Below, in pieces: positions 39,903 to 49,822 of a stretch of DNA of 64,000 nucleotides (positions within the stretch are counted from its first letter, which is position 1; each line of letters begins with the position of its first letter). This stretch comes from Antedon mediterranea (lineage: Eukaryota > Echinodermata > Crinoidea > Comatulida > Antedonidae): the NCBI RefSeq assembly GCF_964355755.1, contig NC_092670.1, positions 19,963,201 through 20,027,200 of the forward strand. Reading direction: 5' to 3'. Both the position numbers and the translations under genes were made by a program. The notes under the pieces were generated by a model. That model was not told the origin of the DNA. It saw only the letters and a list, made by a program, of their open reading frames with translations, and did no database searches.

Positions 39903-39982
39903 TTAATCTTGACCGTAGTTAACTTGTCCTTCCGGTGTTTGGGTCTCTATCGTTGAATTACGATTGTTAGATTCATCTAACC
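39903..39982 (-). CDS. Protease exon 11: cytoplasmic tail and stop
   Basis: 80 bp. Encodes [20 protein letters not shown] and a few more residues, stop TAA at 39903-39905. Acceptor GCTATAG after a T-run. Total CDS of 2,205 bp is divisible by three. Confidence 0.85.
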
Positions 39983-48900: not shown

Positions 48901-49822
48901 GTAATTTAAAAATTGTCGTGTTTTTTTAAAATATAAAACTTCAGGCAGCATATGTAGAATTTAGCCATCGACTTTTACTCGAAAAAGTACACGGGAGTAT
49001 TTTAAAGGTCGGAATAGCGTCGTATCGTAATAGATATTCCATATTTTCGTCTTTTGTAGGGTCTGTACCGCAGTTTATAAATTTGTACCAACAATTGGGA
49101 AAGAGCTGTTAAATTGAATACCAGTAGGTCTACATTAGTAAAATCGTAGTTTCAATACTTACATGCAATGTGCAGCAGTTAGTATCCACTCCGGATGGAC
49201 AAGAGAAGCTCCACAAATTCGACGTCCAGCCCTAAAGAGCGCGGCCTGCCATGGCCACTCGCCATCTTGAGCTTTTGAGCCACCAACGATAAATGTCTCT
49301 GGGTCGAGGTCTTTTACTTTTCCACACGTACTTAAATCTATAGTAAAAATCATCTTGAATTAATAATAGATAGATCAGGGAGTTCTAATAACAACTCCCT
49401 GGATAGATTTATATAGCGCAAATAAACGATGTCTCTATGCGCTCGACAATAAAGAGAAAGAATGGAAACCAAAAGGAAGAGAACAAAGAGACAAAACACC
49501 AAGCTAGTACCCAAACAGGGGTATGGGGATACACCATCACCGCTAAGTGGGGATCAGTATGCAAGTACCCCAGTTGCATCGGTTAAGTCTTGTCAGGGAT
49601 CTAGTGCATCCTAGCCTCTAGTCAGAAAACAACAACAGGCAAGCAAGGTGAACAGAAGCAAAAATAAAATTGGCTAAGATTATTAATTATTTTAAGTCGG
49701 ACTGACACCTAAATAAAAAAAATCTAAGTTTTCTATCGTTAAAAATAAAACCTACCTGAACCTTGACCCTCAGTATTGACGGCGAAGATCAAAGCTACTA
49801 AACACAACTTTACAAACCACAT
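39903..49822 (-). CDS. Type I membrane serine protease: trypsin, LDLa, PAN, CUB, CUB, TM
   Basis: Eleven exons joined in phase give 734 residues. Order: signal peptide (1-22), propeptide with Cys27, trypsin-fold domain (39-about 275), LDLa (about 285-323), PAN/apple (324-404), CUB (405-518), CUB (519-643), transmembrane helix (about 665-686), cytoplasmic tail to 734. Catalytic triad: His79 (TAAHC), Asp135 (HDIALL) and Ser229 (GDSGGP). Asp223, six residues before Ser229, predicts cleavage after Lys/Arg. Cys27 and Cys156 fit the link between prodomain and protease. Oddities: the residue before IVGG is Phe rather than Arg/Lys, and the Cys after GDSGGP-M-V is missing, leaving Cys170 unpaired. Ovochymases also place CUBs after a protease, and type II membrane proteases use LDLa/PAN/CUB, but those carry the protease at the C-terminus. 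The full order here matches no family I know. Confidence 0.9.
40750..40944 (-). CDS. Protease exon 10: transmembrane helix
   Basis: 195 bp, phase 1-1. A charged juxtamembrane stalk ([15 protein letters not shown]) leads to [20 protein letters not shown], about 22 hydrophobic residues, then the cytoplasmic S-R-E-T-K start. With the N-terminal signal this predicts type I topology. Confidence 0.9.
41064..41413. mobile_element. Nested or tandem MITE family B copies
   Basis: At least two copies: AAGCTTGGTTCACATTAAGC runs straight into GTGGTTCTCACTAGAACGC, and the far end reads TCTAGTGGGAACCAAGC. The middle keeps the CAAGCGACAGTTCGAATAAT core. In the intron between the last CUB exon and the transmembrane exon of the protease gene. 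Confidence 0.8.
41489..41863 (-). CDS. Protease exon 9: canonical CUB domain
   Basis: 375 bp, phase 1-1. [16 protein letters not shown], then [17 protein letters not shown], and GFKATFTF. Four cysteines in standard spacing and the acidic residues of a calcium-binding CUB. Confidence 0.95.
42085..42205 (+). mobile_element. Retroelement 3' tail
   Basis: ATAGTGATTAGGTTCACTTT through GGCAATAAATAATAATGATA. Same family as the pieces at 26805-27310 and 60755-60860; the (ATA/ATG)n end suggests a LINE or SINE tail. In a protease gene intron. Confidence 0.6.
42310..42651 (-). CDS. Protease exon 8: divergent CUB domain
   Basis: 342 bp, phase 1-1. Starts [17 protein letters not shown] in place of the usual I-x-S-P-x-Y-P; has W-x-I, IDIDFDVV, and a single cysteine pair (SEC...ASC). 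Clearly CUB-like by strand pattern but diverged. Confidence 0.78.
42681..43534. mobile_element. DNA-transposon-like element with long inverted ends
   Basis: ACCGTATATTTCGGTGTATA at the left is matched by TATACACCGAAATATACGGT at the right; the following AGTCGCAC / GTGCGACT also match. Both subterminal regions repeat GTGTATAAGACGCACC. 854 bp with no transposase ORF, in the intron before CUB exon 8 of the protease gene. Confidence 0.88.
43681..44055. mobile_element. MITE family A copy split by another insertion
   Basis: Family A ends at 43681 and 44055. Between about 43740 and 43945 lies an unrelated A-rich, LINE-tail-like segment with the same start (CAATTCA...TTTATTT) as insertions elsewhere. 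Nested insertion in an intron of the protease gene. Confidence 0.8.
44212..44454 (-). CDS. Protease exon 7: PAN/apple domain
   Basis: 243 bp, phase 1-1. [20 protein letters not shown], followed by CKLG, is the PAN/apple core. It lacks the first and last cysteines of longer apple domains, leaving four. PAN domains usually bind protein or sugar partners. Confidence 0.85.
44672..44996. repeat. Second copy of the GTTTGCGGTACACC inverted element
   Basis: Same arms as at 39260-39443 (AAGTTTGCGGTACACCACGT, CCTCAGGAGTGAGAATG, CTCCTGAGGACGATCAAAGC), separated here by about 150 bp of unrelated sequence, and the same right flank. In the intron between the LDLa and PAN exons of the protease gene. Confidence 0.8.
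45594..45713 (-). CDS. Protease exon 6: LDLa domain
   Basis: 120 bp, phase 1-1. Six cysteines in the LDLa spacing: [21 protein letters not shown] and TDERYC. The D-C-x-D part of the calcium cage is altered (N-T-C-Y-F), so calcium binding may be weak. Confidence 0.92.
45757..46100. mobile_element. MITE family D copy
   Basis: Starts AAAGATGTATTGTCTCCCT and ends GGGACAATACATGGGG. Includes TTGAATATGCCATTTTAATG also found in the copy at 9291-9556 in inverted orientation. In the intron between the protease and LDLa exons, ending about 40 bp from the protease-domain exon. Confidence 0.7.
46141..46312 (-). CDS. Protease exon 5: Ser exon
   Basis: 172 bp. Begins [12 protein letters not shown], then [16 protein letters not shown] and the closing helix ADWIDPIF. 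The usual Cys two residues after M is Thr. An acidic linker leads to the LDLa. Confidence 0.95.
46664..46820. mobile_element. MITE family B copy
   Basis: Full-length: AAGCTTGGTTCCGACTAG to CTAGTGGAAACCAAGC. First of a cluster in the protease gene intron between the Ser-Gly and Asp-Gly exons of the catalytic domain. Confidence 0.88.
46823..47155. mobile_element. MITE family B nested cluster
   Basis: A partial left end (AAGCTTGGTTCCGACTTGG) is followed by a second full copy from AAAGCGTGGTTCCCACTAGC to CTAGTAGGAACCAAGCTTT, then a third piece to about 47155. Insertion of a family member into a relative is the simplest reading. Confidence 0.8.
47336..47487. mobile_element. MITE family B copy
   Basis: AAAGCTTGGTTCCCATTAGG to a diverged right end CCTAGTCAGAACGAAGCTTT. 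About 100 bp from the donor of the protease exon at 47587-47720. Confidence 0.85.
47587..47720 (-). CDS. Protease exon 4: specificity Asp
   Basis: 134 bp. Encodes [18 protein letters not shown] and ends LDSCQ, placing Asp in the S1 pocket. The intron splits the GDSGGP motif region at phase 0, just before Gly-Asp-Ser. Confidence 0.94.
47865..47952. mobile_element. MITE family B, right part, abutting a protease exon
   Basis: CAAGTGAATTGACCAATCAC through AGTAGGAACCAAGCTTA. It ends about 10 bp from the donor of protease exon 3, so part of the downstream splice context is transposon-derived. Confidence 0.75.
47962..48263 (-). CDS. Protease exon 3: Asp exon
   Basis: 302 bp. Contains [20 protein letters not shown] with the catalytic Asp, the TTICIPSH cysteine that pairs with the propeptide in two-chain proteases, and C-T-V-T-G-W-G. 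Donor G|GTAAAT, 10 bp from a MITE. Confidence 0.95.
48285..48780 (+). mobile_element. 3' end of a non-LTR retrotransposon (LINE)
   Basis: An open frame at 48296-48505 ends with the conserved reverse-transcriptase tail region ([18 protein letters not shown], then SFK). A 3' UTR follows and ends ...AATAAAATTG plus A-run near 48780. It is 5'-truncated, antisense to the protease gene, and begins only about 20 bp from the acceptor of protease exon 3. Confidence 0.78.
49163..49337 (-). CDS. Protease exon 2: propeptide and His exon
   Basis: Encodes the propeptide [16 protein letters not shown], the mature start IVGG, the E-W-P-W-Q strand, the Cys42-like ICGAS and the catalytic TAAHC. Acceptor ACTATAG, donor AT|GTAAGT (phase 2). 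Confidence 0.95.
49756..49822 (-). CDS. Protease exon 1: signal peptide
   Basis: ATG at 49820-49822 opens a 22-residue signal: Met-Trp-Phe-Val-Lys, then a Leu/Ile/Val/Ala core, with a likely cut near Gly-Gln-Gly-Ser. Donor G|GTAGGT, phase 1 into exon 2. Confidence 0.87.

Follow-up and report, generated by a model that had tools for sequence, protein, structure and literature searches.

A predicted type I membrane-anchored trypsin-like protease with LDLa, PAN and CUB modules between protease and anchor, and a diverged paralog, in the crinoid Antedon mediterranea

A 64,000-nucleotide stretch of the Antedon mediterranea genome (NC_092670.1, positions 19,963,201 to 20,027,200; hereafter the window) probably contains a single gene for a trypsin-like S1 protease with a type I membrane anchor, acting through the mechanism proposed below. 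The original prediction read a signal peptide, trypsin domain, LDLa, PAN, two CUB domains, a transmembrane helix and a tail, all in phase over 11 exons, and the gene model, GT–AG boundaries at 10 of 10 introns and Pfam agree on this reading. Splicing the 11 minus-strand exons (49822..39903) reproduced the predicted exon coordinates exactly and yielded a single open frame of 2,205 nt, that is, 734 amino acids and one terminal stop. The features of the gene are as follows (window coordinates).

49756..49822, minus strand: exon 1, carrying the start codon and a predicted signal peptide (aa 1–22; gene model, N-terminal hydropathy)
49163..49337, minus strand: exon 2, Cys27 propeptide, activation site PETF/IVGG (slash, cleavage point) and catalytic His79 (gene model, Pfam, residue mapping)
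49293–49291, from 49290, and 49170–49168, minus strand: exon 2 residues F38, I39 and His79 (chymotrypsin His57), respectively
47962..48263, minus strand: exon 3, trypsin domain with catalytic Asp135 (Asp102; gene model, Pfam)
47587..47720, minus strand: exon 4, trypsin domain with specificity Asp223 (Asp189; gene model, Pfam)
46141..46312, minus strand: exon 5, GDSGGP, catalytic Ser229 (Ser195, 46306–46304) and end of the trypsin domain (gene model, Pfam)
45714..46140, minus strand: intron 5, separating the protease from LDLa (sequence inspection)
45594..45713, minus strand: exon 6, LDLa (aa 288–323, six Cys; gene model, Pfam)
44212..44454, minus strand: exon 7, PAN/apple domain (aa 325–400, four Cys; gene model, Pfam)
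42310..42651, minus strand: exon 8, divergent CUB 1 (aa 405–518; Pfam alone 20.2 bits, cut-off 21.4)
41489..41863, minus strand: exon 9, CUB 2 (aa 525–639; gene model, Pfam)
40750..40944, minus strand: exon 10, transmembrane helix (aa 663–686, 40888–40817) between the juxtamembrane region and the start of the cytoplasmic tail (gene model, hydropathy)
39903..39982, minus strand: exon 11, end of the cytoplasmic tail and stop codon (gene model)
39864..39869, minus strand: AATAAA polyadenylation signal, 33 nt past the stop (sequence inspection)

Except for the last, all exons after the protease are symmetric phase 1-1 modules, and LDLa, PAN and the two CUB domains occupy one such exon apiece. Symmetric phase 1-1 exon modules are the usual signature of exon shuffling.

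Pfam recognized Trypsin at aa 39–272 (E 6e-63, 213 bits), LDLa at aa 288–323 (E 1.3e-6), PAN_1 at aa 325–400 (E 4.9e-5) and CUB in two stretches, the better at aa 525–639 (E 2.7e-26 for the whole protein). Scanned singly, the CUB1 exon fell slightly below threshold (E 7.5e-4), and an AlphaFold2 model of that exon alone was uninformative (mean pLDDT 37.6). The S1A features of an intact triad (His79, Asp135 and Ser229), IVGG at 39–42 and GDSGGP at 227–232 are present, and the equivalent of the trypsin-specificity residue Asp189 is, by sequence, D223 within DSCQGDSGGP. His79, Asp135, Ser229 and Asp223 correspond to chymotrypsin His57, Asp102, Ser195 and Asp189. Among solved structures, the best sequence matches are the enteropeptidase, plasma kallikrein and matriptase catalytic domains.

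In 19-residue windows, hydropathy peaked at 2.55 at aa 667–685, compared with a best value of 1.13 for windows starting at 46–619 and 1.54 at the N-terminus. The transmembrane helix was assigned to aa 663–686 and is followed by 48 mostly polar residues, because of which a glycosylphosphatidylinositol (GPI) anchor was rejected. Lysine and arginine flank the helix unequally, with 1 in 20 residues outside and 4 in 20 inside. Pfam and hydropathy applied to the spliced product thus bear out the predicted domain order, and with the protease at 39–272 and the helix at 663–686 of 734 residues they support the idea of a membrane-tethered type I trypsin in which the modules of type II transmembrane serine proteases (TTSPs) are reversed.

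A second copy was sought in the animal's own genome (354 Mb, 18 contigs) using the region after the protease as a query. LDLa, PAN and CUB matches were found on contig C4, in the same order and 3′ of a trypsin, and a gene modelled from 10 kb there comprises 11 exons with an intact frame of 716 residues. The two proteins are 30.8% identical over 695 aligned positions (E 4e-86), and the post-protease region alone aligns with an E value of 2.5e-30 (search space set to 1e9). Intron phases are identical at all ten introns; six introns coincide to the alignment column, and the remaining four, which lie in gapped stretches, are offset by no more than 11 columns. The trypsin, LDLa, PAN and CUB2 regions each scored better than 500 of 500 shuffles; BLAST comparison of the copies over CUB1 alone, or over the transmembrane helix plus tail alone, found no match. 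In the paralog, Pfam placed Trypsin, CUB and PAN_1 above cut-off and LDLa just below it (22.6 versus 24.1 bits); its CUB1 exon, scanned singly, had no Pfam match at E 1. Lysine and arginine make up 1 in 20 residues outside its helix and 5 in 20 inside, and both copies have, judged by hydropathy and charge bias, the type I features of a signal peptide, an N-terminal S1 domain and one C-terminal helix with a tail. Module order, intron positions and phases are shared across 11 of 11 exons and 10 of 10 phases, as expected of a two-member family, and with a collinear copy on C4 the domain order is, on this comparison, not a product of chance. No third member was found among the best-scoring candidates in protein searches of the same genome. 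In a genome survey that scored 150 each of 160 trypsin, 521 CUB and 203 PAN candidates, CUB or PAN lay 5′ of trypsin on the same strand, the arrangement of conventional genes, in every clear pairing among the matches listed (for CUB, a shortened list), the two family members excepted (by eye). Pairings were ambiguous for a CUB on C1 (36755425) and for the C6 and C8 tandem arrays, all of which lie between trypsin genes.

The paralog retains the equivalents of His57 and Asp102. In it, NIIKGN replaces the IVGG activation site and KKYSSDNGAL replaces DSCQGDSGGP, by which Ser195 becomes Asn and Asp189 becomes Lys, and the protein therefore looks like a catalytically dead pseudoprotease. The persistence of an intact 716-residue frame at such divergence suggests that the dead copy is kept for a function, which is probably binding. 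The best conserved of the eleven exons between the copies is that of LDLa (23 of 39 aligned residues). The LDLa exon of the paralog (5934–5818 of the C4 locus, L001) has lost its first and third cysteines, normally joined to one another in a disulfide. Of the acidic positions of the calcium site, the paralog keeps four, and the LDLa of the window copy, with its six cysteines, has Thr at one of these. By eye, Cys170 of the window copy (chymotrypsin position 136, with 201 as its usual partner) is kept in both proteins and the partner is absent; the stretches concerned are 48263–47962 and 46312–46141 in the window and 7250–6991 and 6373–6205 in L001. This unpaired cysteine of the protease domain could form an intermolecular disulfide in both copies.

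The activation site of the window copy, PETF/IVGG, has Phe38 rather than Arg or Lys at P1. Activation sites elsewhere in the genome were surveyed in 40 N-terminal trypsin exons out of 45 matches starting at profile position 1–3, a set that left out the window's own site and four copies from the C6 array and included five near-identical copies from that array. Arg or Lys was found at 29 of the 31 readable sites (27 R, 2 K and 2 Y); the nine unreadable ones comprised three R/IYGG, one R/VVAG, one R/VVGE and four without a clear site. Self-activation of the window enzyme is unlikely, because enzymes with Asp189 cut after Lys or Arg whereas its own P1 is Phe, and the rarity of Phe at P1 in this genome suggests that activation is probably carried out by a different, chymotrypsin-like protease.

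We propose that the enzyme first appears at the cell surface in an inactive precursor form, which another protease, chymotrypsin- or elastase-like, would cut after Phe38 to free Ile39. The active enzyme would then cleave extracellular substrates after Lys or Arg, with an LDLa/PAN/CUB stalk that would bind substrates or matrix, keep the catalytic end outermost, at the greatest distance from the membrane, and perhaps select substrates. The catalytic chain would retain its own covalent anchor after activation, unlike that of type II proteases; given its C-terminal anchor, that chain should stay attached to the membrane whatever the propeptide does. The C4 paralog would be a conserved, catalytically dead partner, probably serving as a binding or decoy receptor.

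As a tentative and somewhat doubtful extension of this proposal, the two genes might form a lineage-specific enzyme/pseudoenzyme pair sharing the LDLa-PAN-CUB-CUB stalk, in which the dead copy competes for or presents the same ligands. On this similarly doubtful view, such a pair might act as an inherent control on proteolysis at the cell surface (of the egg coat, epithelium or immune cells, for instance), with the live copy activated by the separate chymotrypsin-like trigger. We consider it unlikely that the protein serves chiefly for binding, as a receptor with the trypsin domain of the family as a ligand-binding head and a window copy that is rarely or never activated: Phe at P1 in place of Arg or Lys and a paralog with an intact 716-residue frame and no working catalytic residues would fit such a receptor, but the full triad, GDSGGP, Asp189, IVGG and 213-bit trypsin match of the window copy are expected only if catalysis is maintained.

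Intron 5, between the protease and the LDLa exon, bears on whether this proposed anchored enzyme is the product of one gene. In the window copy, reading through from exon 5 adds CKYLFIYIL and then reaches a stop (after nine codons), the intron contains one AATAAA and two ATTAAA, and an in-frame MM (in the stretch MMYFILLA) immediately precedes exon 6. In the paralog, read-through from exon 5 adds S before a stop, intron 5 contains neither AATAAA nor ATTAAA, and reading back in frame from the LDLa exon reaches a stop before any Met. Since the C4 copy shares the 11-exon structure and its LDLa exon lacks an in-frame start, it is very likely, as far as genomic sequence can tell, that a single gene spans exons 1–11. 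One gene might nevertheless give two products, with polyadenylation in intron 5, where the in-frame stop and AATAAA would permit it, yielding a soluble trypsin alongside the full-length membrane protein; we regard this as improbable, as hexamers of this kind often occur in A/T-rich introns and the paralog does not share them. Two adjoining genes, a secreted trypsin (exons 1–5, ending in intron 5) and an LDLa-PAN-CUB-CUB type I receptor with its start immediately ahead of exon 6, appear far-fetched: the read-through stop (immediate in the paralog as well), the AATAAA and the MMYFILLA ahead of the LDLa exon would suit them, but the paralog has intron 5 at the same phase and column without a Met or polyadenylation hexamer, both halves would need to be copied jointly and retained in register, and a pyrimidine-rich splice acceptor tract would by itself tend to encode hydrophobic residues before exon 6. 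The separate receptor gene suggested by the MM was set aside, as the paralog has none. The original prediction had named a stop or polyadenylation signal between 46141 and 45713 as the sign of two genes; a stop and an AATAAA do lie there, and the split they could imply is made unlikely by the C4 copy.

Several other features were observed in the window, which lies on contig C1. Downstream on the same (minus) strand, a gene spanning window positions 1–26700 and running off the window edge has a CUB exon at 26295–26681 and many EGF-like exons (EGF by eye); its piece 25241–25489 had no Pfam match. Two avidin-domain exons lie on the same strand at C1:19952838–19953593, about 10 kb beyond the edge. 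The combination of CUB, EGF and avidin-domain exons is one that we take to resemble sea urchin fibropellin, and the downstream gene looks like a fibropellin gene. Inside it, at 22–2118 on the minus strand, is a repeat array that, by eye, gives the same peptide unit in more than one frame. CATATTTGGGCATATCAC is part of an interspersed repeat with 14 matches in the window (at most two mismatches) against 0.01 expected, at 14199–14216, 63293–63310 and 12 other sites; two matches fall within the protease gene, in its intron 7, and similar stretches are seen by eye in introns of the C4 paralog. Plus-strand exons at 53200–57300 look PGS1-like by eye, presumably resembling phosphatidylglycerophosphate synthase (PGS1), and the long piece 55615–56850 of this region had no Pfam match. 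A 242-codon open frame at 15031–15759 on the plus strand contains a GIY-YIG-like stretch and had no Pfam match at E 0.01; it resembles, and may come from, a Penelope-like element.

Finally, we compared the predicted protein with known proteases and receptors. CUB and LDLa accessory modules belong to type II TTSPs such as matriptase (ST14), enteropeptidase (TMPRSS15) and matriptase-2 (TMPRSS6), with which the window protein shares the likeness of its S1A domain and anchoring at the cell surface, and also a propeptide cysteine, Cys27, with Cys156 as its expected partner. Order and topology are reversed, however: the anchor is C-terminal and the protease N-terminal, where a type II enzyme has an N-terminal signal anchor and a C-terminal protease. 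The window protein also differs in having PAN, in giving no Pfam match to SEA, MAM or SRCR, and in having Phe rather than the Arg or Lys of an Arg/Lys-IVGG site at P1. Neto and LRP10/12 are type I receptors with CUB and LDLa modules and no protease domain; CUB, LDLa and a type I helix are common to them and the window protein, which adds an N-terminal trypsin and PAN.

Tryptase gamma is another C-terminally anchored S1 protease, and we know of no LDLa, PAN or CUB between protease and anchor in tryptase gamma, TMPRSS12, PRSS8, PRSS55 or testisin. The accessible portion of PMC7834812 describes TMPRSS12, PRSS8/prostasin and PRSS55 as type I membrane-anchored S1 proteases and testisin as GPI-anchored, noting that some authors regard PRSS8 and PRSS55 as GPI-anchored too. 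By that account, all four share a signal peptide, an N-terminal S1 domain and a C-terminal anchor with the window protein, and such C-terminally anchored proteases measure 314–352 residues against its 734. An N-terminal protease with C-terminal CUB domains is the plan of ovochymases, and HrOvochymase comprises a protease, two CUBs, a protease, three CUBs and an inactive protease domain (PMC9265791, accessible text). It thus shares an N-terminal protease followed by tandem CUBs with the window protein, and the ascidian protein, too, includes a protease domain with an atypical triad. The original prediction had cited ovochymases as not known to have LDLa, PAN or a membrane anchor, and none of the three appears in the accessible description of HrOvochymase (PMC9265791); the window protein has all of them, with LDLa and PAN intervening between a single protease domain and the CUBs and a transmembrane helix where an ovochymase would be secreted. 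The CUB1 domain, located in the C-terminal part of ascidian proacrosin, reportedly binds proteins of the egg coat (PMC9265791, accessible text), and the CUBs of mouse OVCH2 are dispensable for fertility (PMC10850435, accessible text), which cautions against over-reading CUB function in the window protein. In honey bee SP20 (nudel), given as 3LDLA-SP-3LDLA-pSP..., LDLa modules also lie C-terminal to the S1 domain; that protein is very large, and its description in the accessible part of PMC1761132 includes no PAN, CUB or C-terminal type I anchor.

We found no report of a protease-LDLa-PAN-CUB-CUB-TM protein among the open-access papers listed, most of them outside subscription journals. As far as these sources extend, only the combination and order of the modules is unusual, as a type I anchor, a protease followed by CUBs and a protease followed by LDLa are each known. 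The suggestion of a new family gains from the second, diverged member in the same genome and loses from the fact that the type I anchor and the protease–CUB order were already known separately. The two copies may offer an active/inactive pair for studying pseudoprotease regulation of cell-surface proteolysis, and a natural test of the roles of stalk modules where the catalytic domain lies outermost. Compared with type II TTSPs, they indicate that the same module set can also be built in reverse, with the anchor at the C-terminus, and that this reversed architecture was kept long enough to yield two strongly diverged copies.
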